Shown here: piece after piece, positions 3,901 to 27,240 of the stretch
Layout: every line of letters begins with the position of its first letter
Numbering within the stretch: position 1 is the stretch's first letter
NCBI GenBank assembly: GCA_030917925.1
Contig: JAUPTV010000095.1
Span: forward strand, 1 to 33,651
Reading direction: 5' to 3'
From: Pseudomonadota bacterium
GTDB lineage: Bacteria > Pseudomonadota > Gammaproteobacteria > Competibacterales > Competibacteraceae
Length of the DNA stretch: 33,651 bases
Position numbers and translations under genes: made by a program
The notes under the pieces: generated by a model
What the model was told of the DNA's origin: nothing
The model's database searches: none
The model's input: the letters and a program-made list of their open reading frames with translations, nothing else

Positions 3901-4327
3901 CGTTCAGCGCCACTTCGGCGTAACTGGTCAATTCAATACGCCGGGGCCGGCCACTGTGATTGCGCAACGTGACCCGCCGCACTTCCAGATCCGCATCCGG
4001 GGCGATGCACACCTCCAAACGGGCTTCAATGCCGTCATCCACCCGCTGGAATTCAGCGTGGTCCGCCATGAACCGGGCGGCGTACTGTTCCGGAATTTTC
4101 CGGGTCGGCTGCTGGCCCAGTGACCAGAATGCGCCGCTATCAAGATCACGCAGATACAGGAAAAATCCCTCGCCCTGTTCCACCGGATCAGCATTCCAGC
4201 GGGTCAGTGCCACGCCGTTCCACACCGCATAGCCAGCGCCGGCCGCGGTCAAAAGCAGCGCATAGCCGCCACGGGCGAACACATGACCGTCAACGGCTCG
4301 GGCGTGTTGAATCAGGTCGGCGTGCAT
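923..4327 (-). CDS. GH94 family phosphorylase, NdvB C-terminal-like (probable beta-glucan oligosaccharide phosphorylase)
   Basis: A protein of about 1134 residues with two tandem GH94 N-terminal beta-sandwich (GT36-type) units and an alpha/alpha barrel. The two units contain matching blocks: FFLYLRDLDSGAFWSL near 56-71 matches ALYLRDEDQSRFWSL near 400-414, and FLLGATADRE near 253 matches FLLGEADSQD near 582. The barrel holds the catalytic GTGDWNDGMNRVG motif near 796-808, with the general-acid Asp in DWND, and FGFRDQLQD near 663. GH94 enzymes phosphorolyse beta-glucosidic bonds to sugar-1-phosphate. Domain order and motifs are closest to the C-terminal part of cyclic beta-1,2-glucan synthase, and length matches stand-alone 1,2-beta-oligoglucan phosphorylases, but linkage specificity is inferred. 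No signal peptide is seen, so it is cytoplasmic. ATG 4327 follows GGAGG by 7 bases and is preferred over the in-frame TTG at 4330. It is the last gene of the carbohydrate block. Residues about 272-312 are repeat-derived. Confidence 0.85.
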   Translation of the reverse strand: MHADLIQHARAVDGHVFARGGYALLLTAAGAGYAVWNGVALTRWNADPVEQGEGFFLYLRDLDSGAFWSLGQQPTRKIPEQYAARFMADHAEFQRVDDGIEARLEVCIAPDADLEVRRVTLRNHSGRPRRIELTSYAEVALNDWAAHAAHPAFSKLFVQTEWVAESGALLARRRPRTPEEPTCWLVHALMGEDVSCETDRARFIGRSYSLAEPQALVTTEPLSGTVGNVLDPMVSLRRVVELAVDGEAQATFLLGATADRETALNAVRRYVPLPSMSSPVEEGTSQTPSPLAGNLAASPSPLTGDGSSQGEISAPEPLQFWNGYGGFSADGREYVLRLTPCASGRLKLPPQPWVNVIANPQFGFLASETGAGYTWSQNSRENRLTPWYNDPILDPHSEALYLRDEDQSRFWSLTPGPVPQAVPYEVRHGFGYSRYRQISQGLEQEVCLFAAREEPVKIALIRLRNLGNQPRRLSLFSYARLALGDLVIEQDAASGALLAENRNRAFAGRIAFAAASPVDSVPLHISGDRATFIGPLGSPARPAALVRHPVLDGRVGAGLDPCFALQVTLRLEPGATLERAFLLGEADSQDSARRLINRYSEAGAVNGALAEVQNFWRNWLGAVQIETPLPELDVMMNGWAAYQTLGCRLWARSAFYQSGGAFGFRDQLQDAAALVYYDPELTRQQLLLHAGHQFTEGDVLHWWHPEPLGCGLRTRFSDDLLWLPYLATFYGHATGDWSLFGEPVRFVQARALAAGEDEVFLTPEDSGETATVYEHCCRALDRSLTQGAHGLPLMGTGDWNDGMNRVGREGRGESVWMGFFLYAILGDFIPVCGQHGDYNRARRYAAFRSHLATALNEQSWDGEWYCRAWYDDGTVLGSSASDECQIDALAQAWAVISKAAPWARAEAALDAVERRLIDEESGLIRLLTPPFANTPHDPGYIKGYVAGVRENGGQYTHAALWVVRALAELGRRGLAVRLLEQLNPVSRARTPEAVAVYRLEPFSVAADIYGIAPHVGRGGWSGYTGSAGWLLRVTLESILGLELVESHALRLRPCIPDAWPGFRLRYRLPEGEATYEIEVRNPDGAAQRVTAVEIDDHPGRIEYGAAHIPLFRDGLVHQVLVTLGGAVENGGTGA
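3396..3515. repeat. GC-rich palindromic repeat inserted in frame inside the GH94 gene
   Basis: This stretch holds inverted C-run/G-run blocks. Bases 3479-3489 (CCCCTCCTCAA) face 3503-3515 (TTGAGGGGAGGGG), and a second set of runs spans 3400-3470. It encodes a low-complexity Ser/Pro/Gly segment containing TPSPLAG and SPSPLTGDG, between the first and second GT36-type units, where a short linker would be expected. The composition and the SPLTG-like peptides match dispersed intergenic palindromes of the proteobacterial CCCCTCCCC type. The reading frame is preserved. Confidence 0.6.
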
Positions 4328-4446
4328 CAAGAATCCTCCAGCAGGTGAAATTTCTCTATACAGTGTAGCTTCATCGCACAGAATAACCTTGATTGTTGAC
4401 CTTTAGCCTTTATAGCCTTTCTCGATGATCACCGGATTTCCGGATT

Positions 4447-4482
4447 CCCCTCCTTGAGTAAGGAGGGGTGGCGCGAAGCGCC
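4447..4482. repeat. Double-hairpin dispersed repeat between the two glycan genes
   Basis: Two adjacent perfect hairpins are visible. CCCCTCCTT (4447-4455) pairs with AAGGAGGGG (4460-4468) around GAGT, and GGCGC (4470-4474) pairs with GCGCC (4478-4482) around GAA. The sequence continues as GGGGTGGTTCGG. It lies in the 206-base gap between the secreted glycosidase-like gene and the GH94 gene. Repeats of this pattern are common between bacterial genes. It may stabilise the 3' end of the upstream message or attenuate read-through; there is no T-run, so it is not a classical terminator. Confidence 0.6.
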
Positions 4483-4533
4483 GGGGTGGTTCGGAATGTC
4501 GGCTACTCAGGTTAAAACACGATAACCCCACGC

Positions 4534-7500
4534 CTAATAACGCAACTCCACCTCGGCCGGGAACCGGTCAACCCGTACCGTTTTTGCGGTCAACGCCGTC
4601 GCGGACTGCCCATTGATGACCACCTCGCGCACCGGTCGATCCAGTGGGGAATGCAGGAGAATACCGCCCGCCGGCACCGCGACATCGCCCGACAGGCGCA
4701 CACGCAACGTATTCGGTCCGGCCATCGCCATCTGGTAGTTCAGCGTGCCGTGCCAGGTCGGCATCCGCTTGATCGCAACACCCTCGCGACTTTCCACCCA
4801 GGCGGCCGGCAGACCCGCACCAATGACCAGCGCCTGCGTCGCTTCTTCCTCATACACAAAGAGACTGCGGACCGCCCGGATAAAATCGGAACTCACCCAG
4901 GTATGGGGCATGTCGCCGATAAATCGCGGCATCCGTGGATTGCGCCAGACCACTTCCGCCCAGTGATTCCAGGCGCGTGGTCGTTGCCCCTCCAGGAAGA
5001 ACGCCATCGCTTCCAACGCCTCATCGCGACGACCCAGCCGGATCAATGCGCCCACCGACCGCCATTCATAGGGGGTATACGCTTCCCAGGTTGCTTTCGC
5101 CTGCCGCTCACGGAAAAAGTCCAGATAGCGATCAAAGGTCCGATTCAGCGCCGGTTGCGGCAAGCGGCCCAGTTCGCCGCCGGGATCGAGCGCAACCGTG
5201 GTGGAGGTCGGGTCAAAGTCGCCCAGTTCAACCGCGCCGGGAATAAAGTCGATTTGATGCACCTTCAGCGTTTCCGCAATCGAGGCGTACAAATCCTGGG
5301 CGAAGGCGTCGCGCAAGACCGTCATCCGGGCAATTTCCGGCGCTTCGTCGAGAATCACCGCCATAGCAGCGGCGTCTTTCAGACCGCGCAGGATGAAGAA
5401 ATTATCCCAGTAGGAATGTTGCGGCTGGCTGGCGTAGCCTTCATGGCTGATTGACTCTGGGACCAGGCCACGATAGGCCTGATACTTTGCGTCATCAGCA
5501 TATTTGCCGGTGGAGCGTTGTTGGCGCAGGGTCTCAATGTAGCCCACCGCCTTGACGACGTAGGGCCACATCTCGCGCAGAAAACCGACATCGCGGGTGT
5601 AGCGGTAGTACTCCATCGCTGCGTAAATCAGTTGGCCATGGCTGTCATGTTCCACAGTCGGGTCCGCGCCGCGCCCGTCCACACAACAGGGTACTTTGCC
5701 ATCCGGGAACTGGTGGGGCGCGAACCATTGCAGAAACTGCCGCGCCTCTTCGGTAAAACCCATGCTCAACAGCGCCGAAGAGGTCAATGCGCCGTCGCGA
5801 ATCCAGGACCGGGCATAGGCGCGGGAACCGGGCTGAATCGCCGGGCCATTGCGGTTAATCAGAATGTACGCCAGATTGCTTTTAAGACTGTCGGCCAGGT
5901 GACGCGCCTCCTGCGGCAGCTCCAGACTGGCGCGATCCAGCCGCGCTGCCCATTCCCTTTGCGTCTTTTCCAGCAACCGGTTCACCTGAGCAGCAGCGTC
6001 CGCTTCAGGCAGGATGGGCGCATCATTGCCAACCGCGTGGAAGGGTGTGCGCAAATAGACGTCGCGGGCTTCACCGGGGCGCAAATCCCAGCCGTACTCC
6101 AGAACCCCGGCGGCGTAGCCGAAGGTATCCTGCTCGACCAGCTCTCGTTGCGGCAACCGGCCATTGATCAGATCATCGGTGAGCGCGCCCTGATCGAAAG
6201 CAGCGGCGCGGAAGCGATCCGGCGTGGTCAGTACCGCAATTTTTTTGCCCGCCGGTTCGACGTGCAGCCGTCGGTTGGCGTAATTGAGCTGGCGGATGGG
6301 CGCGACGCCGGTGGCGCTGTTCAAACCTTGCCAGGGCGGGCTGACCTGGAAAGGCCGCACGGTCAGAAACAAGGCGATATGGCGGGTTTCATCGCTCAGG
6401 TTTTCAATCCGGTAGCGTGTATACAGCGCCGATTCCCCGGCCTTGCCCGCAGCGAAAGCGGTGACGGCGAACCAGAAGTGTTCCAGTTCCCAGCGCACGG
6501 TTGGAATCGGCAGATGGCCCTCCGCCAAACTCTGGACCGGTTCCACATCCGCCCAAGTGATTAACTGGCCATTGGTAAACAGGAACGGTTCCACGGTGAA
6601 GCCGCCCTTGCCGACTTCCACTGCGCCATCTTCATTCAGCAGCGCCTCCTGGCTGTCGCCGGGAACTCCAACGACCGTCCAGTAACTCTGTTCGCCCTGG
6701 AGATAGCGGGGATACAAGCCGCGTCGGGCGTCGCGGGCGACCGTTTCAAAAAAACGGTTGGGCGAGGCGGAAAATTCATAGGATTGAATGGCGACATAGC
6801 GAATGGCATAGCCGCGTCCCCGGCTGCTGCGCTCCAGATTCAGCCGAAGGTAGCGGGATTCCGCATCGTACAGATACAGATAATCGCGCTGGCCGTTGCC
6901 GCCATTGACCGTGTACAGCGTCCGCCAGCGTTCGCCATCGTCGGAAGCCTGCACCTGATAATCAATGGCGTAATCGTCAGCGTCCCAGTCGAGAATCAGC
7001 CCGCCATATTCACGGGGCCGAACGAAATCCAGCAATAACCACTGCTTTTCCGCCAGTTCACCGCTGCGCCAGGAGGTGTTGGCATCGGTATTCAGCGCCG
7101 CGGCGGGCGGATGGCCATGCACCTCGGTCGAAGCGGTCGCCAGCGGATTGAACGTCGCGGTTTCCAGCGGTTCACGTTCTTCCAGGGTAAGGTTGTCGAT
7201 CCAGACCGACCCCTTGCCCAGGACGCTGGCGGAAATGGCGAATTCGATCTCGGTCAGTGGTTCCACCGCGCCGCCCGGCCCCCAGGCCAGTTGAAGATGG
7301 CGCTTTTTGACCGTGACCGGCTGCCAGTCGGCGGGGAAATCCAGATCACGCTGTTTGGCCCACCACACATTCTGCCGGGCGTCGATCAGTTTGAATTCCA
7401 TATCGCTGCGTGGCCCCTGACCACGCATGGCGTAGCGAAACACAAAATTTTCCGGCAAGCGCATCCGAAAGGTTTTACGGGCGATGACGAAGCTCGCACC

Positions 7501-7743
7501 TTCCTGAAACTCGAAATCCAGCCGCATGGCCCGGCGACCATCCAGCCCCATATCCTGAGCAATTTCCAGCCGGGCACCGGACGAGACAGCGGCGCTCCAG
7601 CCGCTCAAGTTCTCGAAATCGTCCAGTAAAATGGTTTTCGGGGAGGTCACTGGCACTTCGGGCGGCGCGGCAGGCAGAGTGGAGGGCAGCATCAGCAGCA
7701 AGATCGTGAGGAAAAGGCTTGAGAAAACGTGGCGAGGTATCAT
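4534..7743 (-). CDS. Secreted multidomain protein: F5/8 type C (discoidin) domain plus six-hairpin glycosidase-like barrel
   Basis: A 1069-residue protein with a signal peptide (hydrophobic 6-23, likely cut after Ala25). It is followed by a beta-sandwich (about 38-190, starting LLDDFENLSGW, CBM-like) and an F5/8 type C-like domain (about 205-322, with NTDANTSWRSG and YQVQASDDGERWRTL). A beta-rich region (330-600), an (alpha/alpha) barrel (about 615-960) and a short beta C-terminus complete it. Barrel motifs are RSWIRDGALTSSALL (Asp650), VEHDSHGQLIYAAMEYYR (Glu698, Asp700) and YTPYEWRSVGALIRLG, which resemble inverting six-hairpin glycosidases. The catalytic pair and substrate are not proven. 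Position next to a sugar ABC importer and a GH94 phosphorylase suggests periplasmic or surface trimming of a glucan for uptake. The ribosome site before ATG 7743 is weak. A non-catalytic carbohydrate-binding role remains possible. Confidence 0.7.
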   Translation of the reverse strand: MIPRHVFSSLFLTILLLMLPSTLPAAPPEVPVTSPKTILLDDFENLSGWSAAVSSGARLEIAQDMGLDGRRAMRLDFEFQEGASFVIARKTFRMRLPENFVFRYAMRGQGPRSDMEFKLIDARQNVWWAKQRDLDFPADWQPVTVKKRHLQLAWGPGGAVEPLTEIEFAISASVLGKGSVWIDNLTLEEREPLETATFNPLATASTEVHGHPPAAALNTDANTSWRSGELAEKQWLLLDFVRPREYGGLILDWDADDYAIDYQVQASDDGERWRTLYTVNGGNGQRDYLYLYDAESRYLRLNLERSSRGRGYAIRYVAIQSYEFSASPNRFFETVARDARRGLYPRYLQGEQSYWTVVGVPGDSQEALLNEDGAVEVGKGGFTVEPFLFTNGQLITWADVEPVQSLAEGHLPIPTVRWELEHFWFAVTAFAAGKAGESALYTRYRIENLSDETRHIALFLTVRPFQVSPPWQGLNSATGVAPIRQLNYANRRLHVEPAGKKIAVLTTPDRFRAAAFDQGALTDDLINGRLPQRELVEQDTFGYAAGVLEYGWDLRPGEARDVYLRTPFHAVGNDAPILPEADAAAQVNRLLEKTQREWAARLDRASLELPQEARHLADSLKSNLAYILINRNGPAIQPGSRAYARSWIRDGALTSSALLSMGFTEEARQFLQWFAPHQFPDGKVPCCVDGRGADPTVEHDSHGQLIYAAMEYYRYTRDVGFLREMWPYVVKAVGYIETLRQQRSTGKYADDAKYQAYRGLVPESISHEGYASQPQHSYWDNFFILRGLKDAAAMAVILDEAPEIARMTVLRDAFAQDLYASIAETLKVHQIDFIPGAVELGDFDPTSTTVALDPGGELGRLPQPALNRTFDRYLDFFRERQAKATWEAYTPYEWRSVGALIRLGRRDEALEAMAFFLEGQRPRAWNHWAEVVWRNPRMPRFIGDMPHTWVSSDFIRAVRSLFVYEEEATQALVIGAGLPAAWVESREGVAIKRMPTWHGTLNYQMAMAGPNTLRVRLSGDVAVPAGGILLHSPLDRPVREVVINGQSATALTAKTVRVDRFPAEVELRY

Positions 7744-7765: not shown

Positions 7766-8185
7766 TCAGGAATTTATCCCTTGATATGGAAACAAGTCCA
7801 ATTGAATCCATAGTTTTCTTGCTGCTATTTGTGATGTGCTATTTATTTTCAAAAGAGCAATTGTTACTTTACCAGTCAGTGTTTTTCCGATAATCATGCC
7901 CGTTTCCATTTCAACTTGGAAGTGGCTATGCCACTGATCCTGTCTAGGGTTAAATATCTGTGCTTCAAGACCAGAATCAGGTTCTACACCAACAATATTA
8001 GCGCCTTTATGAAGGTTGCAAGAACGGCAAGCCAGCGCCAGGTTATACTCAGCATCAATGCCTCCCTGCTTTAGTGGAATGATGTGTTCAACCTCAAGAG
8101 GAAAATTGAAAACTAATTCAGGCGCATGACAATATTCGCAACGGTGATCTGCTCTTAGGCTCACTATCAGGTAAAAGTGATTCAT
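7766..8185 (-). CDS. HNH endonuclease-domain protein
   Basis: A 139-residue protein with a complete HNH/zinc core. CEYC (Cys16, Cys19) is followed by LEVEHIIPLKQGG (Glu33-His34), NLALACRSCN (Asn48, Cys53, Cys56) and His59. HNH domains cut DNA through a beta-beta-alpha metal fold. The C-terminus ends WIQLDLFPYQG, a tail I recognise from many cyanobacterial and gammaproteobacterial relatives with no assigned role. The start overlaps the stop of the upstream 120-residue gene (ATGA), so the pair is translationally coupled. Both genes are richer in A/T than their neighbours and split a sugar-transport operon, suggesting acquisition. Whether it belongs to a toxin-antitoxin, defence or homing system cannot be told from sequence. 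Confidence 0.85.
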   Translation of the reverse strand: MNHFYLIVSLRADHRCEYCHAPELVFNFPLEVEHIIPLKQGGIDAEYNLALACRSCNLHKGANIVGVEPDSGLEAQIFNPRQDQWHSHFQVEMETGMIIGKTLTGKVTIALLKINSTSQIAARKLWIQLDLFPYQGINS

Positions 8186-8544
8186 AATTTCATTGATGCC
8201 ATCATGGAAATTGATCTTAATGTCGCAGCATGTAATTCACTTTCAATAAGTTTTTCGAGTTCAAGTTGCAGATTTTCTGGAAAATTTTTTCCTTGGTCCC
8301 GTGCGGTCCGCCAAAGGGCCATTAATTCAGCCAGCCGATTTCTTTGCTGGTCAGTGAAAAACTGATCAGGGTGAAAATCCCGAATAAATAATAAGGCGCT
8401 AAAATCATTTTCACCCAATTGCTCAGTGAGCGCATCCAATGCTTGGCCTGCAGTTTTTCCAGTAAATTGTTGATTACCAACAACCGCACAATAAGCTTTA
8501 TCTCCGTGATTATTTAATACCGGTAAAATTGCGATAGTAGTCAT
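8182..8544 (-). CDS. Conserved hypothetical protein paired with HNH nuclease
   Basis: 120 residues with no enzyme motif that I recognise. Residues about 3-40 look like a short beta-alpha unit (AILPVLNNHGDKAYCAVVG, then TAGQALDALTEQL). The remainder is helical and charged, with FHPDQFFTDQQRNRLAELMA and LELEKLIESELHAATLRS. An AAGGGG ribosome site precedes ATG 8544, which lies four bases beyond the permease stop. It overlaps the HNH gene by 4 bases, so the two are made together. It is soluble with no signal peptide. By context it could be a partner, inhibitor or specificity factor of the nuclease; this is inference only. Confidence 0.75.
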   Translation of the reverse strand: MTTIAILPVLNNHGDKAYCAVVGNQQFTGKTAGQALDALTEQLGENDFSALLFIRDFHPDQFFTDQQRNRLAELMALWRTARDQGKNFPENLQLELEKLIESELHAATLRSISMMASMKL

Positions 8545-8548
8545 TGTA

Positions 8549-9382
8549 TTACCCCTTCATCCCGCCGAGCATAATCCCGGCAATGTAGTACTTCTGCAAC
8601 ACGACAAACAACAGCATGACCGGCAACACGGTCAGCACCGAACCCGCCATCATCATTTCCGTATCCTGCACATGTTCACCCAATAAATTAGCCAGGGCCA
8701 CGGGCAGGGTGTACAGCGAACTGTCCGTCAGGACAATCAGCGGCCACATAAAATCATTCCACGCACCCATGAAGGTAAAAATCGCCAGCGTGACCAGAAT
8801 GGGGCGACACAGCGGCAACACCAGCGACCAGTAAATCCGGAACTCGCCTGCGCCGTCCATCCGCGCCGCATCTAGCAGACTATCCGGGATCGCCAGCAGA
8901 TATTGGCGAATCAGGAAAATGCCGAAGATGCTGGCCATGCCGGGAACAATCACCCCCCAGTAAGTGTTGATCAACCCAAATTGTTTGAGTAACAGGAACA
9001 GCGGCAGCATCGCCACTTGGGCCGGAATCACCAGCGCCCCCAGCAAGCCCTGAAACAGCGGATCACGGCCCTGGAACCGGAACTTGGCGAAGGCATAGCC
9101 GGCCATCGAATTGATGAATAACGAAATCGCTGTCACTGCCCCGGCCAACAGTGCGCTGTTCAACAGATACCGCGCCAGATCCAGCCGGGTGAACAGCGCC
9201 GTGTAATGCTCAAATGTGACCGTACTCGGCCACAGGCGCGGCGGGACGCTGTTCGCTTCGCCGGACGGCATCAGCGAGGCGGCGATCATCCACCACAGCG
9301 GCGTCAGCGTCAGCAGCAGACCGAATATCAGCAGTCCGTACAACGCCAGCGCCGGGAAAAAGGAACGCATAAAGCGGTTCAT
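8549..9382 (-). CDS. Carbohydrate ABC transporter permease, MalG type
   Basis: 277 residues with six predicted membrane helices. The N-terminus reads ALYGLLIFGLLLTLTPLWWM, followed by a periplasmic loop with PSGEANSVPPRLWPST, as usual for MalG-family (CUT1) permeases. The cytoplasmic EAA loop that docks on the ATPase is present as DAARMDGAGEFRIYWSLVLP. The C-terminal KYYIAGIMLGGMKG is the family ending. I chose ATG 9382 rather than an upstream start at 9481 because it gives the normal family length and overlaps the previous permease stop in an ATGA junction. It works with the permease at 9379-10272 and the binding lipoprotein at 10269-11576. Confidence 0.93.
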   Translation of the reverse strand: MNRFMRSFFPALALYGLLIFGLLLTLTPLWWMIAASLMPSGEANSVPPRLWPSTVTFEHYTALFTRLDLARYLLNSALLAGAVTAISLFINSMAGYAFAKFRFQGRDPLFQGLLGALVIPAQVAMLPLFLLLKQFGLINTYWGVIVPGMASIFGIFLIRQYLLAIPDSLLDAARMDGAGEFRIYWSLVLPLCRPILVTLAIFTFMGAWNDFMWPLIVLTDSSLYTLPVALANLLGEHVQDTEMMMAGSVLTVLPVMLLFVVLQKYYIAGIMLGGMKG

Positions 9383-10272
9383 GACGACGCTCTCCGGCGT
9401 AATTTTAATTGCAGCACCGTCCCGGCCAGAATCAACACAAACAGAATAAACGCCGCCGCCGAAGCGTAGCCCATGTTCCACCAGCGGAAGCCTTCCTCAT
9501 ACATTAGCAGCACGATGCTCAAAGTTCGGTTCGCGGGACCGCCCTGGGTCATCACATAGGGTTCAGCGAAGACCTGAAAATAGCCAATCATGGTCATTAA
9601 CGCCACGAACAGGAACGTCGGTCCCAGCAGGGGCAGGGTGATATGCCGGAACTGCGCCCAGGCTTGAGCGCCGTCAATCCGCGCCGCTTCGTAGAGTTGC
9701 GGCGGAATATTCTGTAAACCGGCGATAAAAATGATCATGTTGAAGCCGAAATTCTTCCACACCGCCATCAGAATAATCGCCGGCATCGCCCAATCAGGGT
9801 CGCCCAGCCAGTCTATCGGTTCAATGCCCGCCAGGCTCAACCCGTAATTCAGCAACCCATAACGGGGATGGTAGAGATAGCGCCAGACTACGGCTACCGC
9901 CACCAGCGTGGTCACCACGGGCAGAAAGAACGCAGTGCGGAACAGACCGGGAAAGCGGGTTAGCCGGGCATTGACCAGCAGCGCTGCGCCCAAGGACACG
10001 GCGACGGATAGCGGGCCGCCGAGAATAACGAAATAGAAGGTATTGCCGATTGCCGTCCAGAACAGCGGACTTTGCAGCAAGTGCAGATAGTTATTGAAGC
10101 CGACAAAGCGCAGCCGGTTGAGATCGCCCAGGGCGTAAATATCGAAATCAGTGAAGCTCAACAACAGTGCCGCCAATACCGGCAAGAAGAAGAACACCGC
10201 AATCAGCAGCAATGCCGGGGTTAGAAACACCCAGGCGCTAAAAGCCGCATGACGCTCCAAACCATTCATCAT
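9379..10272 (-). CDS. Carbohydrate ABC transporter permease, MalF/UgpA type
   Basis: 297 residues, six membrane helices, with AFSAWVFLTPALLLIAVFFF as the first helix. The EAA motif is YEAARIDGAQAWAQFRHITL, followed by the LLGPTFLFVALMTMIGYFQV helix and VMTQGGPANRT, all standard for CUT1 permeases such as MalF, UgpA and LacF. Its ATG at 10272 overlaps the stop of the binding-protein gene and its end overlaps the start of the second permease, so all three are translated as one unit. No ATP-binding subunit is encoded nearby. A shared MsmX/MalK-like ATPase encoded elsewhere would be needed. A palindromic repeat lies only 6 bases upstream of its start. Confidence 0.93.
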   Translation of the reverse strand: MMNGLERHAAFSAWVFLTPALLLIAVFFFLPVLAALLLSFTDFDIYALGDLNRLRFVGFNNYLHLLQSPLFWTAIGNTFYFVILGGPLSVAVSLGAALLVNARLTRFPGLFRTAFFLPVVTTLVAVAVVWRYLYHPRYGLLNYGLSLAGIEPIDWLGDPDWAMPAIILMAVWKNFGFNMIIFIAGLQNIPPQLYEAARIDGAQAWAQFRHITLPLLGPTFLFVALMTMIGYFQVFAEPYVMTQGGPANRTLSIVLLMYEEGFRWWNMGYASAAAFILFVLILAGTVLQLKLRRRASS

Positions 10273-11576
10273 CGCTGTCCCTCACCCTCTGGGAGAGGGG
10301 CCGGGGGTGAGGGCGGCTGTTCCCGCTCCAGCAACCACCGCCGCTTTTCCAGAATACGATCCACCTCCCGATCCAGCGCCGCCAGCGCTTCATCCACACT
10401 CATTTGCTGACGCGCCGTCATTTCTGCGTAATACGTCAAACGACTGGCAATCCGTTCCCATTCGGGAATCGGCGGGGTCGCCTGAACATTTTGCAATTGC
10501 TGGCGAAACGCCTGGGCATAACGGTTGCCCGCCAATGCCGGAATCTTCCAGGCCGATTGCCGGGCAGGCAGGTCGCCGGTGATTTGATAAAACTGCGCCT
10601 GCTGTTCCGGTTCAGCCAAATACTCCAGCAACTTCCAGGCGGCGTCCTGACGCGGCGACGTGCGACTGAGCGCGAGACTGGCCCCGCCCGCCAGCGATGC
10701 GCCCGGTAACGGCGCGGTCATCCACTGATCCTGCAAACCTGCCGGCAACCGCCGCCGAAATTCGCCAATATTCCACGGTCCGGTGATATAAACCGCGAAA
10801 TAACCGTTGGCAAATTCCTGATAAAGATTAGCCATCTGGGTATTGCTCATCGGCGGTGCTAATTCCTCGGCAAACAGGCTTAAATAAAACCGGAATGCTT
10901 CCTTGAAGCGGGGATTCTGGAAGTCGCCATATTGATCCCGATCCCGCAACAGCGTTGCGCCGCGTTGCAGGGCGAGAATTACCAGAAACTGCCATTCATT
11001 GACCGGCAACAAGATGGCGTAACGCTCCGTCTCGTCCAGCGTCTTCAACCGGGCCATGGCTTGTAACCAGTCGTCCCAGGTCGTCGGCGGCTCGGGGTAG
11101 CCCACCGCTTTCAGCAAATCGCTCCGATAAAAAAAGAGTCGCGTATCGACATACCAGGGCAACGCCCAGGTCTGACCATTCAGCCGGTTAGTGGCGAGAA
11201 TGCCGGGGAAATAGTCATTGACGGCGGCGGCGGGCCAGCCTTGCAGCCGCGCATCCAGCGGTTCCAGCGCTCGCAGCGCCACAAATTCGGGAATCCAGGT
11301 ATTACCGAGCTGGAACACGTCAGGCATGGCGTCGCCGGCATAAGCAGTCAGCAATTTTTCATGCGCGGCGCTCCAGGGAATTTGTTGGACCCGCACCCGG
11401 ATACCCGGATGGCGGCGCTCAAACTCCGGCAACAGCGCCTTGACCTGCTCGCCTTCCTGGCCCATCGCCCAGAATTCCACCACCACCGGTTGATCGCTGG
11501 GCGCATGACAACCAATCAGCCCCACAGCAGCGAAAATAATGAGCAGCAAGCAATGGCGGATAGTGAGCGTGCGCAT
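10269..11576 (-). CDS. Sugar ABC transporter substrate-binding lipoprotein (solute-binding family 1)
   Basis: 435 residues from ATG 11576. The N-terminus is a type II signal peptide with lipobox LIGC (lipidated Cys23), so the mature protein is membrane-anchored in the periplasm. Family 1 (MalE-like) features follow: VVVEFWAMGQEGEQVKALLP, FERRHPGIRVRVQQIPW, the DVFQLGNTW hinge segment, and GYFAVYITGPWNIGEFRR. The start at Met23 of the longer open frame is chosen because it places the charged signal peptide at the N-terminus, although no strong ribosome site precedes it. The last 18 or so residues come from the palindromic repeat. The neighbouring GH94 and glycosidase-like genes suggest it binds beta-linked gluco-oligosaccharides; the ligand is not determined. 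Confidence 0.9.
   Translation of the reverse strand: MRTLTIRHCLLLIIFAAVGLIGCHAPSDQPVVVEFWAMGQEGEQVKALLPEFERRHPGIRVRVQQIPWSAAHEKLLTAYAGDAMPDVFQLGNTWIPEFVALRALEPLDARLQGWPAAAVNDYFPGILATNRLNGQTWALPWYVDTRLFFYRSDLLKAVGYPEPPTTWDDWLQAMARLKTLDETERYAILLPVNEWQFLVILALQRGATLLRDRDQYGDFQNPRFKEAFRFYLSLFAEELAPPMSNTQMANLYQEFANGYFAVYITGPWNIGEFRRRLPAGLQDQWMTAPLPGASLAGGASLALSRTSPRQDAAWKLLEYLAEPEQQAQFYQITGDLPARQSAWKIPALAGNRYAQAFRQQLQNVQATPPIPEWERIASRLTYYAEMTARQQMSVDEALAALDREVDRILEKRRWLLEREQPPSPPAPLPEGEGQR
10279..10313. repeat. Palindromic repeat at the binding-protein/permease junction
   Basis: CCCTCACCC (10279-10287) and GGGTGAGGG (10305-10313) are exact inverted copies flanking an inner CTCT/AGAG palindrome, giving a stable stem-loop. 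On the minus strand it encodes the last codons of the binding protein (tail with PPSPPAPLPEGEG), which do not look like solute-binding-protein sequence. This is a common dispersed repeat type in proteobacterial genomes. It ends 6 bases before the permease start at 10272. Confidence 0.7.
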
Positions 11577-11673
11577 GGAGAGCCGTGAATGGGCGGGAGA
11601 AGCGAGGCACCGATCAATGCCGATCAGCGCTGGAAAGGTCAACCAGAATTGTATATTGAATTGACAGGGGCGG

Positions 11674-23239: not shown

Positions 23240-24241
23240 ATGCCACTATTGCCCGATGCGATGACTGTTATTGAAATCACCGAACCCGGTGGTCCCGAAA
23301 AGCTGGCGGTCAGCCGCCGTCCCTTACCGCAGCCCGCGTCCGGTGAAGTCCTGATTCGGGTGGATACCGCCGGCGTCAACCGGCCCGACTGTCTGCAACG
23401 TCAGGGGGGCTATCCGCCGCCGCCGGGTGCTTCCGACATTCCGGGTCTGGAAGTGGCCGGAACGATTGTCGCGCTGGGCGAAGGGGTTACTGAATGGCAA
23501 ATCGGCGACGAAGTCTGTGCGCTGCTCACCGGGGGCGGTTATGCCGAATACTGCGTAGCCCCTGCTCCGCAATGCCTGCCGATTCCCGCCGGCTTGAACC
23601 TGCAACAGGCGGCGGCCTTGCCGGAAACATTCTTTACCGTCTGGAGCAACGTGTTTGACCGGGCGCGGTTGCAACCGGGCGAAATCTTGCTCGTGCATGG
23701 CGGAACCAGCGGCATTGGCGTGACGGCGATTCAACTGGCCAGAGCACTGGGTTCGCGGGTCTTCACCACCGTTGGCGGTGCCGAGAAAGCGCAGTTCTGT
23801 CTGGATCTGGGGGCGGAGCGGGCGATTAACTATCGGGAAGAAGATTTCGTAAAAGTGGTCAAGGAAGCCACGAACAACCGGGGGGCCAATGTCATTCTGG
23901 ATATGGTCGGCGGCGACTATGTGCAACGCAATCTGAGCGCACTGGCGGTGGAAGGCCGGTTGGCGTTCATTGCTTTCCTGCGCGGTGCCAAGGTGGAACT
24001 GAATCTGGCTCCGGTGATGATGAAGCGCCTGACCATCACCGGCTCTACGTTACGCGCCCGGCCGGTTGCCGATAAGGCTCCTATCGCTCAAGCCCTGCAA
24101 AAAACCGTCTGGCCGTTGCTGATCAACGGAAACGTTAAACCGATCATCGACCATGTTTTCCCGCTGACTGAAGCGGTTGCCGCTCACGCGCTGATGGAAT
24201 CCAATCGCCATATCGGCAAGATTCTGCTCAAGGTGGCCTGA
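23240..24241 (+). CDS. NAD(P)H quinone oxidoreductase, PIG3 family (zinc-less MDR)
   Basis: 333 residues of the medium-chain dehydrogenase/reductase superfamily. The GroES-like half contains GEVLIRVDTAGVNRPD, CLQRQGGYPPPPGASDIPGL and GDEVCALLTGGGYAEYC. The Rossmann half contains ILLVHGGTSGIGVTAIQLAR (NADPH-binding), GAERAINYREEDF and VILDMVGGDYVQRNL. The GRLAFIAFLRGAKVELNL segment and the absence of the structural zinc cysteine cluster match TP53I3/PIG3-type quinone reductases. It reduces quinones or enones with NADPH. It lies 58 bases after nrdJb and is followed by an intrinsic terminator, so it may share the nrdJ transcript, though a functional tie is not evident. The ribosome site is weak. 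Confidence 0.92.
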   Translation: MPLLPDAMTVIEITEPGGPEKLAVSRRPLPQPASGEVLIRVDTAGVNRPDCLQRQGGYPPPPGASDIPGLEVAGTIVALGEGVTEWQIGDEVCALLTGGGYAEYCVAPAPQCLPIPAGLNLQQAAALPETFFTVWSNVFDRARLQPGEILLVHGGTSGIGVTAIQLARALGSRVFTTVGGAEKAQFCLDLGAERAINYREEDFVKVVKEATNNRGANVILDMVGGDYVQRNLSALAVEGRLAFIAFLRGAKVELNLAPVMMKRLTITGSTLRARPVADKAPIAQALQKTVWPLLINGNVKPIIDHVFPLTEAVAAHALMESNRHIGKILLKVA

Positions 24242-24279
24242 CCTGACGCACACCGCGTAACCCTCAAGCCTGATCCTTC

Positions 24280-24309
24280 ATCCCTCGCCATGCGGGGGAT
24301 TTTTTATTT
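24280..24309 (+). terminator. Intrinsic terminator after the quinone oxidoreductase gene
   Basis: ATCCCTCGC (24280-24288) pairs with GCGGGGGAT (24292-24300) around a three-base loop CAT, with one T-G wobble. It is followed directly by TTTTTATTT. This is a standard Rho-independent terminator for plus-strand transcription, ending the nrdJa-nrdJb-oxidoreductase unit 39 bases after the last stop. Confidence 0.85.
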
Positions 24310-24371
24310 GTGAATTCTGCATTGCAGCAAAAAAATCGTCTATCATCATTAAAACGATCAAAAGAATTTTG

Positions 24372-24485
24372 ATGAGTCGTGCAGAAATCCTCTTCAAATC
24401 CTTTGATCAACTAGAATCATTATTGAGATGGTCTGATCGTGTCCAGTCTGCCTGTGACACTTTGCTCAAAAAGATCAGTCAATAA
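24372..24485 (+). CDS. Possible micro-ORF, 37 aa
   Basis: The frame reads MSRAEILFKSFDQLESLLRW then SDRVQSACDTLLKKISQ and stops. The predicted product is an amphipathic helix. No proper ribosome site precedes the ATG and the DNA here is A/T-rich. It lies between a terminator and the better-supported 57-residue gene, 70 bases downstream. It could be a leader, a remnant or chance. Confidence 0.25.
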   Translation: MSRAEILFKSFDQLESLLRWSDRVQSACDTLLKKISQ

Positions 24486-24555
24486 AGATAAAAAAATACG
24501 GCTTTGCGGGGCGCTGCGCCTGCAAGCGCTTGATACAGGTTGAGAGGTTAAAACT

Positions 24556-24729
24556 ATGCGTGGTCAACGTAAATTTGGCCATCCGTTCGTCTGGTTTGAA
24601 GACGGCGGATGGTGGTTCAAAGTATTCGGCGAATCCTTCGGCCCCTATCGGGATTTGGCTGATGCTCGTTACCAATTACTGGTCATTGAGGGACTCCGCC
24701 AACAACTTCGCGAAGCTATTGCCTGTTAG
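24556..24729 (+). CDS. Small hypothetical protein, 57 aa
   Basis: A GAGAGG ribosome site precedes ATG 24556 by about 8 bases. The product is MRGQRKFGHPFVWFEDGGW, then WFKVFGESFGPYRDLADARY, then a helical end LLVIEGLRQQLREAIAC. The aromatic beta-hairpin pattern ending in GPYRDLADA resembles small domains with a W-x-G-PF-S-EA motif seen in many uncharacterised bacterial proteins. Composition and codon use look coding, unlike the A/T-rich DNA just upstream. It converges on pssA, with only 21 bases between the stops. Function is unknown. Confidence 0.6.
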   Translation: MRGQRKFGHPFVWFEDGGWWFKVFGESFGPYRDLADARYQLLVIEGLRQQLREAIAC

Positions 24730-24750
24730 TGGACGGGAGGGATCGAATCG

Positions 24751-25551
24751 TTATTTGTCAGGCAGATCGCTCAGTCCCTGGGCGCGGCGGCGCGCGCGTT
24801 GCCGCAAGCGGGCCAGATACATCACCGGACCGGACAGGCCATAGAGCAGAAAGCCGATAAACAACACTTTCGCGGGATCAATAGAAATGATGACCAGCGT
24901 GAGCACCACCAGCATTGCCGAAATGAAGGGCACCCGGCCGCGCAGGTTGATCTGCTTGAAGCTGAAGTACAGGATGTTGCTGAACATCAGCCCGCCAGCG
25001 CCAATGATAATGACCAGCGCGGGCCAGAGCGCTTGTTGACCGGTCAGGCCCAGATCGGTGCAGAACCAGACTAATCCGGCCACGATGGCCGCCGCTGAAG
25101 GACTGGGCAGACCGATAAAATAGCGCTTATCAGTATGGCCAATTTGCACATTGAAGCGGGCCAGTCGCAGCGCCGCCATGACCGTGTAGAAGAAAGCCGC
25201 CAGCCAGCCGAGTTTGGACAGGAATGATCCCATGTCGGCCATGGAACCGAGCGCCCATTCATACATGATCAACGACGGGGCCAGGCCGAAAGATACCAGG
25301 TCCGACAGGCTGTCGTACTGTGCGCCGAATTCGCTTTCCGTATGCGTCATCCGGGCGACCCGCCCATCCAGTCCATCCAGCACCATCGCGATGAACACCG
25401 CAATCGCTGCTGCCTCGAAACGACCGCGCAGCGCGGCGATAATGGCGTAGAAACCGCAGAACAGGGCGGCCGTGGTGAACAGATTGGGTAACAAATAAAC
25501 GCCGCGCGAACGACGGGTTTCAGGGACATCCGGAATCATGGGCTTTACCAT
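24751..25551 (-). CDS. pssA: CDP-diacylglycerol-serine O-phosphatidyltransferase
   Basis: 266 residues of the CDP-alcohol phosphatidyltransferase family. The motif D-G-x2-A-R-x8-G-x3-D-x3-D is complete (Asp62, Gly63, Ala66, Arg67, Gly76, Asp80, Asp84). About seven membrane helices follow from LLPNLFTTAALFCGFYAII, and the family block ALRLARFN and GLPSPSAAA are present. It makes phosphatidylserine, the precursor of phosphatidylethanolamine, at the inner membrane. It is the integral membrane subclass II enzyme, unlike the soluble E. coli PssA. It follows ilvC by 57 bases on the same strand, an arrangement common in beta- and gammaproteobacteria, so it probably shares the ilv transcript. Confidence 0.94.
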   Translation of the reverse strand: MVKPMIPDVPETRRSRGVYLLPNLFTTAALFCGFYAIIAALRGRFEAAAIAVFIAMVLDGLDGRVARMTHTESEFGAQYDSLSDLVSFGLAPSLIMYEWALGSMADMGSFLSKLGWLAAFFYTVMAALRLARFNVQIGHTDKRYFIGLPSPSAAAIVAGLVWFCTDLGLTGQQALWPALVIIIGAGGLMFSNILYFSFKQINLRGRVPFISAMLVVLTLVIISIDPAKVLFIGFLLYGLSGPVMYLARLRQRARRRAQGLSDLPDK

Positions 25552-26637: not shown

Positions 26638-27240
26638 TCAGGTTGGCTGGCTGGCAGCGCTCAGTAAAAAATCCAATGCGCCGAAGAGTTCCGGCAGATC
26701 ATCGATGGAAAAGCTTTCCCGGTTTTTGGTAAATAACGCCTCAATCAACTGGCCAAATTCCCAGTATTTGCCATCAGTGACGATGCCATAAACGGTCGTT
26801 GTGGCTTTACCGTTCAGTTTCTGCATGGCCACCAGCTCGGCTAGACATTGCGCCCAACCTTGTTCGAAATCACTCTTTTTGGCTTCCACCACCGCAAGCA
26901 ATGGTAATTCCAGGACGGTTTTGCCTAATGGTGAACGCTTGGCGAACAGATAATCCGGCGTTCCGCTCAGTTTTTCGTCATAGCTGATCGGTTTTTGAAT
27001 CCACAACGTAATTTCTGCTGCACGGTTTTTATAAACTTCGCGTAAAATCGGGAAAATGAGCAATTCACAGCGGGCGGCTTCTGAAGAAAAAGCATCCATC
27101 GTCCTGATGTTGAAGTTGAATTCAGTGAAAAAACTATCGGTTGGGACAATCAATTTTTTTTCGATGAAAGTCCCTTCATCATATTTGATCTGATATTCCT
27201 GTTGCACTTGAGACAGGGTTTTGTAATCACTAAAAGACAT
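26638..27240 (-). CDS. PD-(D/E)XK nuclease-fold-like hypothetical protein
   Basis: 200 residues. The segment SGTPDYLFAKRSPLGK then LPLLAVVEAKKSDFEQGWAQ gives the PD...ExK arrangement (Pro95-Asp96, Glu119, Lys121) of restriction-endonuclease-like folds, with a helix after the ExK strand as usual. An acidic helix before it (MDAFSSEAARCELLIFPILR) could supply the first Glu. No specificity domain is seen. Relatives are scattered in cyanobacteria and gammaproteobacteria with no known role. It sits between ilvH and ilvC, is A/T-richer than both and has a poor ribosome site, all suggesting recent insertion. Nuclease activity is predicted from motif only. Confidence 0.7.
   Translation of the reverse strand: MSFSDYKTLSQVQQEYQIKYDEGTFIEKKLIVPTDSFFTEFNFNIRTMDAFSSEAARCELLIFPILREVYKNRAAEITLWIQKPISYDEKLSGTPDYLFAKRSPLGKTVLELPLLAVVEAKKSDFEQGWAQCLAELVAMQKLNGKATTTVYGIVTDGKYWEFGQLIEALFTKNRESFSIDDLPELFGALDFLLSAASQPT

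Follow-up and report, generated by a model that had tools for sequence, protein, structure and literature searches.

A translationally coupled HNH nuclease and YnzC-like hairpin protein in a sugar-transport operon: a predicted toxin-antitoxin-like module

What is a small, AT-rich pair of genes, one of them encoding an HNH nuclease, doing inside a sugar-transport operon of a gammaproteobacterium? The question is raised by contig JAUPTV010000095.1 of a member of the family Competibacteraceae (assembly GCA_030917925.1), of which we analyzed a stretch of 33,651 nucleotides (nt), referred to below as the window. The original prediction, made from the letters of the window, described two overlapping genes for an HNH protein and a small partner without a known domain, and proposed that they form a mobile module of unknown purpose. 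Here we find that the pair is an insertion in the operon and belongs to a widespread family of cognate gene pairs; for its purpose we can now offer a more specific prediction, a toxin-antitoxin-like role.

Both open reading frames (ORFs) were confirmed (Table 1). They overlap by 4 nt, TTATGAATC, an ATGA in which the partner stop and the HNH start are merged. The same overlap was found in 47 of 67 class-A pairs of other genomes (class A is the partner class of the window, see below), so the coupling exceeds chance. The start of the partner gene lies 4 nt (TACA) after the stop of a sugar permease gene, as had been noted, and a glycosidase-like gene starts 22 nt beyond the HNH stop; both flanking genes are co-directional with the pair. 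The A/T-richness of the pair is evident as well: GC content is 39.8% in the module versus 57.9% and 60.8% in the flanks, and at third codon positions it is 0.29 (partner) and 0.34 (HNH) versus 0.67–0.74 in four neighbouring genes.

We compared 20 permease loci, of which 15 were close relatives from other genomes (L003–L017, several of them ending at contig edges), and found the pair in none of them except the window's own. In four relatives (L003, from the same genus, L012, L015 and L017) the glycosidase-like gene is located directly 3' of the permease gene. Since the permease adjoins the next gene directly in these operons, the pair of the window is an insertion, and its presence is not a conserved feature of the sugar operon.

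To what family does the inserted pair belong? A scan of genome contigs with an alignment of class-A HNH proteins (A2) revealed 154 relatives, and we retained the 80 best loci; a scan with the partner alone revealed none. The partner was located directly upstream of the HNH gene in 74 of these 80 loci, 68 times as class A (67 by pattern plus L099, missed by the pattern; L132 is truncated) and six times as class D. A different small ORF precedes the HNH gene in L138 and L147; the remaining four loci have no partner (L110), a truncated partner and a frameshifted HNH gene (L137), a contig edge (L139) or an inserted element (L142). Besides cyanobacteria and gammaproteobacteria, for which the pairing had been claimed, the pair is present in Planctomycetota, Verrucomicrobiota, Armatimonadota and Chloroflexota. 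On cyanobacterial plasmids a small ORF stands directly before the HNH gene in eight of nine loci examined, and a transposase takes its place in L069. A partner search of plasmids gave one record, the same search of phages and of viral contigs gave no match, and an HNH search of viral contigs gave one weak match (43% over residues 11–59).

We further analyzed 18 cyanobacterial genomes that were picked for holding a class-A HNH gene and overlap as a sample with the 80-locus set. They contain from 6 to 36 HNH profile matches each, IscB and other HNH genes included. Among the 93 matches listed to an expectation value (E) of 1.5e-20 (90 loci read first and three later), 71 of 72 complete HNH genes initially, and 74 of 75 with the three added, had an ORF of 60 or more amino acids (aa) upstream. 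This criterion is lenient, as 1038 of 3600 points placed at random in these loci also pass it; all 71 upstream ORFs belong to two partner homology pools. Class A was present in all 18 genomes, in 21 partner copies, and was single-copy in 16. The pair is therefore an old, cognate and near-obligatory unit: in the contexts catalogued here (the 80 loci and the 18 genomes) the partner nearly always accompanies the HNH gene, and the two are not usually separated.

Several individual loci should be described here. In L142 (G366:C1 7626708-7629020) the inserted element, with an ORF that is presumably TnpB-like, splits an intact class-A partner from a truncated HNH gene, a natural separation of the two. 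Genome G309, from the family of the window, contains five HNH modules, on contigs C328, C294, C320, C195 and C256 (L054–L058), and their partners represent four classes (A, B, C and D). In a Gloeothece plasmid (L022) a 67-aa protein (3986–4189) is encoded just before a class-B pair (4239–5015); it resembles the C-terminal half of the window partner (41.9% over residues 56–117) and may be what is left of an earlier module.

The two genes are lost unequally. In the 18 cyanobacterial genomes we revealed 18 incomplete HNH genes, 11 of which have a full-length-looking partner nearby (L194, L200, L207, L211, L213, L225, L228, L229, L231, L232 and L237); the partners of all 11 belong to the homology pools. 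Two of the 13 incomplete HNH loci with an ORF of at least 60 aa nearby (L230 and L236) were left uncounted, the ORF being a fragment. In L235 an intact partner lies beyond an inserted element. A broken HNH gene with a kept partner was observed 12 times and the reverse once (sign test, p = 0.003); since the search was keyed on HNH, loci that had lost only the partner were the easier ones to find. The ratio of non-synonymous to synonymous substitution rates (dN/dS) was 0.07–0.36 over both genes in eight pairs, which indicates purifying selection on both.

The partner combines a shared C-terminal part with exchangeable N-terminal ones. In its AlphaFold2 (AF2) model (mean predicted local distance difference test, pLDDT, 80.9; predicted template modelling score, pTM, 0.56) a β-β-β-α domain is followed by a hairpin of two helices (residues 65–83 and 90–117). 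YnzC of Bacillus subtilis (3bhp) heads the VIA structural list for this hairpin (Z 6.9, root mean square deviation (rmsd) 1.9 Å over 52 residues), with unrelated helical proteins next at Z about 6. When a profile of six class-D partners was compared with PDB sequences, three YnzC chains came first (E 2e-4 to 9e-4, 26–28 columns). The partners of L056 and L057 scored 13.4 and 13.0 bits against the Pfam family UPF0291/DUF896 (gathering cutoff 24.2), and the window partner gave no match to it. Thus, the C-terminal hairpin of the partners is related to YnzC/UPF0291, by sequence through class D and by structure through class A. We know of no function established for YnzC itself. The original statement that the partner has no known domain agrees with Pfam, whose cutoffs none of 21 partners tested reached, but the hairpin does have this kinship. 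The partner is not recognised by Pfam, NCBIfam, PHROGs or PADLOC.

The N-terminal part of the window partner has weak structural similarities only. For residues 1–56, 2yzt, which we take to be HicB-like, was at Foldseek rank 24 (E 1.3) and double-stranded RNA-binding domains (dsRBDs) were at Z about 5–6; Pfam gave no HicB match, and Foldseek with the whole model gave nothing below E 0.001. The class-A profile found unrelated-looking PDB sequences, the best (E 3.6e-5, positions 51–116) being a trioxododecanoyl-CoA synthase fusion chain.

Blastp grouped 162 upstream proteins into two clusters, one of class A (87, including the window partner) and one of other partners (72); three proteins fell into neither. 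Profile comparison with hhalign linked class A with the main pool (64 of the 72) with 93.75% probability over 44 C-terminal columns, and the main pool to a Phd-like class (8) with 96.2%. In total, 11 N-terminal classes on a shared hairpin were distinguished by patterns drawn up after the sequences had been viewed; seven of 85 proteins stayed unlabelled. Some N-terminal parts have sub-threshold Pfam matches, RelB-like (E 0.0035), FitA-like ribbon-helix-helix (RHH; E 0.017) and Phd/YefM (E 0.073). On a tree of 67 of the 72 complete HNH genes the 11 class labels required 10 changes, the minimum, against a mean of 45.8 after shuffling; the tree omits L157, L179, L181 and L214 (partner unlabelled, in three of them similar to existing classes), the partnerless L210 and the three genes read later. 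Since 11 labels need only 10 changes, every nuclease lineage retains its partner class. A fused ORF in L060 was considered as proof of interaction and dropped: its partner portion is cut short, and for this reason the locus looks decayed.

The HNH protein is a confident member of PF01844 (48.8 bits, cutoff 21.4), with core residues that are invariant or nearly so in an alignment of 47 sequences. With its AF2 model (pLDDT 90.4, pTM 0.85) Foldseek placed PtuB of retron Ec78/Eco7 first (probability 1.00, TMq 0.56–0.63, 138–140 columns) and Septu PtuB seventh (TMq 0.61), and PADLOC PtuB models matched the sequence (best 38.7 bits, E 2.4e-10). According to the model, the protein resembles PtuB over its length. 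The nearest cores by sequence in NCBIfam and PDB searches were the HNH domains of IscB and Cas9. A fragment of IscB was rejected as an explanation, the NCBIfam match (profile positions 189–240 of 314 only) reaching 42.6 bits, far under the cutoff of 175. Membership in Septu was rejected too, as the neighbours of the pair are the ABC permease and glycosidase-like genes and PtuA is not among them.

How does the unit spread, and how is it expressed? When copies in different contexts are compared, many pairs have in common only the two genes plus about 20–50 nt before and 0–20 nt after them; others share longer flanks, e.g., the Nostoc loci L076, L083, L089 and L129 downstream. The 125 neighbour ORFs of class-A loci fell into 110 homology clusters. 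Of the claimed mobility, horizontal spread is what the data show; machinery for movement was not found (target sites and terminal repeats were not systematically sought). The window partner is single-copy in a 4.2-Mb genome, and this genome was the only one of 299 in a sample of the phylum Pseudomonadota in which a search found the class-A partner. In a midpoint-rooted joint partner-HNH tree of 60 loci plus the window, the window is placed, without finer resolution, inside a set of 39 rows (support 100/97) that comprises 36 cyanobacterial rows, the window and the proteobacterial loci L073 and L081. Together with the low GC content, this placement suggests a cyanobacterium-like donor.

As regards expression, 36 of 66 class-A loci have a TATAAT 27–40 nt upstream of the start codon (1.5 in shuffles) and none of the 66 has one in two windows farther upstream, so that just over half of the class-A copies appear to bear a promoter element. 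The window copy has no TATAAT at this distance and hence probably relies on read-through from the operon. That transcription is borrowed, as originally suggested, is plausible here but is not a rule of the family, whose upstream neighbour is co-directional in 35 of 64 loci.

Taken together, gene order and coupling, locking of cognate classes, varied N-termini, nuclease-biased loss and horizontal spread make up a toxin-antitoxin signature. We consider it likely that the pair is a type II toxin-antitoxin-like module that moves horizontally, its toxin being a PtuB-like nuclease and its antitoxin a modular hairpin protein. As in type II systems, two small adjacent co-directional genes are arranged with the one in antitoxin position first, and the toxin rarely persists alone (one partnerless gene among 75 complete ones, 12 broken ones with a partner). 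Toxicity, neutralisation, target, donor and read-through are inferences, as follows. Coupling through ATGA would let the antitoxin be made first and in step with the toxin. The YnzC-like C-terminal hairpin would grip and silence the nuclease, and the class-specific N-terminal part could serve in regulation, dimerisation or sensing. Once freed, the HNH protein might cut tRNA or DNA; its likeness to PtuB is the sole guide here, and the target is accordingly a guess. The window copy would have come most likely from a cyanobacterium-like donor and landed behind the permease without the leader of many relatives, to be expressed probably by read-through of the sugar operon.

Several observations weigh against this interpretation. 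Toxicity of the nuclease and its binding by the partner are predictions only. Of five mycobacterial HNH proteins, just one, which cleaves DNA, was lethal on overproduction (PMC9416677), and PtuB of retron-Eco7 alone caused no growth arrest, PtuA being required (PMC11555353). The PtuB matches have a Foldseek E of 5.5e-3 and an rmsd of 4.7–6.4 Å, with nothing below 1e-3. The RHH, RelB and Phd matches are under Pfam cutoffs, and unrelated families score similarly (e.g., LINES_N, 0.0019); directly compared, class A and the Phd-like class are not significantly related (4.1%). No DNA-binding domain was recognised in class A by Pfam, Foldseek or the structural list, which leaves autoregulation unsupported for this class. 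One complete HNH gene does stand without a partner (L210, identical with locus L110), some of the frameshifts may reflect sequencing errors in draft assemblies, and the single-copy state of class A in most cyanobacterial genomes would suit a host role too.

An unlikely explanation, which overlaps in part with the toxin-antitoxin interpretation, is a minimal anti-phage (abortive-infection) module, where a PtuB-like effector is kept inactive by an infection-sensing partner without classical antitoxin turnover or autoregulation. The Foldseek and PADLOC matches to PtuB described above speak for it, and the many N-terminal classes could serve as sensors; however, neither an ATPase nor another defence gene is located directly beside the window pair, and neighbours elsewhere share almost nothing (no test for defence-gene enrichment near the pair was made). 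We think it improbable that the pair is a selfish homing-type element, whose partner N-terminus would guide the HNH protein to DNA sites so that breaks spread a unit of about 0.8 kb. In favour of it, the DNA common to two copies in different contexts often, though not always, barely exceeds the two genes, several HNH relatives occur per genome and the nuclease decays; yet both genes are under purifying selection and the partner outlives HNH (the search for target sites and terminal repeats was not systematic), and with unrelated neighbours and class A mostly single-copy per genome, homing was dropped as first choice. A non-toxic nuclease with a chaperone or regulator, serving the host in repair or RNA processing, is the least probable, since its low dN/dS and presence of class A in all 18 genomes (selected for class-A HNH) are opposed by patchy distribution outside cyanobacteria, as in the phylum of the window, insertion in an operon and many decayed copies.

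How does the predicted toxin-antitoxin-like module relate to known systems? It shares with type II systems of the RelB, Phd, CopG and HicB kinds two small coupled genes with the partner first, a variable N-terminus, a patchy spread and a partner that outlives the nuclease. It differs in having an HNH/PtuB-like nuclease as toxin and a YnzC-like hairpin as presumed neutraliser; the N-terminal likenesses fall under curated cutoffs and the role of the pair is a prediction. HNH-fold RNases are reported among B. subtilis toxins (PMC6562991). The overall fold of the HNH model is shared with PtuB of Septu and of retron Ec78 (Eco7), but these chains have 205–234 residues against 139 here, the HNH gene is paired with that of a hairpin protein, and no PtuA ATPase gene lies beside the window pair. 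PtuA and PtuB of retron-Eco7 together arrest growth and deplete tRNA-Tyr, and neither does so alone; the authors leave direct cutting of tRNA-Tyr open, consider the related retron-Eco4 likely not to target tRNA, and cite a Septu that acts on nicked DNA (PMC11555353). A Septu system cuts the variable loop of tRNA-Tyr, and its defence requires H75 and N91 of PtuB (PMC13096335). With YnzC/UPF0291/DUF896 the partner shares the helical hairpin, under the Pfam cutoff, and differs in its N-terminal additions and the HNH gene behind it; IscB and Cas9 are nearest to the nuclease in HNH core sequence, but with 139 aa it lacks the other parts of IscB.

We found no account of this pair in the open-access literature (the search did not extend to subscription papers and supplements). 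In NetFlax a PtuB-like HNH node, D51, is linked to D29, and the available text does not mention the hairpin partner (PMC10440598); nor is the pair described in the available portions of PMC4853749, PMC11980606, PMC8163844 and PMC3482391. We rate the toxin-antitoxin kind as known and the predicted combination of toxin and antitoxin as new.

Table 1. Features of the inserted pair and its surroundings in the window
Feature	Positions	Strand	Basis
Solute-binding protein gene	10269–11642	-	ORF list, Pfam
Permease 1 gene	9379–10272	-	ORF list, Pfam
Permease 2, ABC sugar permease (PF00528), host gene, upstream flank	8549–9481	-	Pfam
4-nt spacer after permease stop; no TATAAT leader	8545–8548	-	TATAAT present in 36 of 66 class-A loci
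Partner gene, class A, 120 aa, predicted antitoxin	8182–8544	-	ORF; class-A homologues upstream of HNH; AF2 model
Partner residues 1–56, class-A N-terminal β-β-β-α domain	8377–8544	-	dsRBD/HicB-like, weak structural similarity only
Partner residues 62–117, C-terminal helical hairpin, YnzC/UPF0291-like	8194–8361	-	Model and profile comparison
ATGA overlap, partner stop / HNH start	8182–8185	-	Sequence
HNH nuclease gene, 139 aa, predicted toxin	7766–8185	-	PF01844; AF2 model; PtuB fold matches
HNH/zinc core, residues 16–62 (C16, C19, E33-H34, N48, C53, C56, N57)	8000–8140	-	Pfam; alignment
HNH C-terminal part, residues 70–133 (FxPRxxxWxxHF and beyond)	7787–7978	-	Alignments; within PtuB structural alignment
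F5/8 type C and amylo-alpha-1,6-glucosidase-like protein, host gene, downstream flank	4534–7743	-	Pfam

Two other AT-rich spots were observed in the window. A gene for a 200-aa protein at 26638–27240 (reverse strand, about 44% GC) lies between the genes for the acetolactate synthase small subunit and ketol-acid reductoisomerase; it has no Pfam match, a search of 25 genomes found its relatives in seven, among them the genome of the window with five matches, and it looks like another lodged gene. At 24000–24900 the local GC content dips to about 0.48 between coding regions, with one listed ORF of 104 aa.

A wider scheme is conceivable, and we hold it as a tentative, rather doubtful extension: a large superfamily in which a stand-alone PtuB-type RNase or DNase toxin, possibly tRNA-cutting, is restrained by a YnzC-like hairpin antitoxin carried on about ten N-terminal parts, and from which the effectors of Septu and retrons I-A recruited PtuB, PtuA replacing the hairpin antitoxin. 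If the toxin-antitoxin role itself is confirmed, it would add a family of toxin-antitoxin systems that is present in several phyla and multi-copy in the cyanobacterial genomes examined, and would give the YnzC-type hairpin a role. The family would offer an unusually clean case of antitoxin modularity, one hairpin with many N-termini and each class tied to a nuclease lineage, as well as a simple model, without an ATPase, of how the PtuB-type effectors in Septu and retrons can be kept in check.
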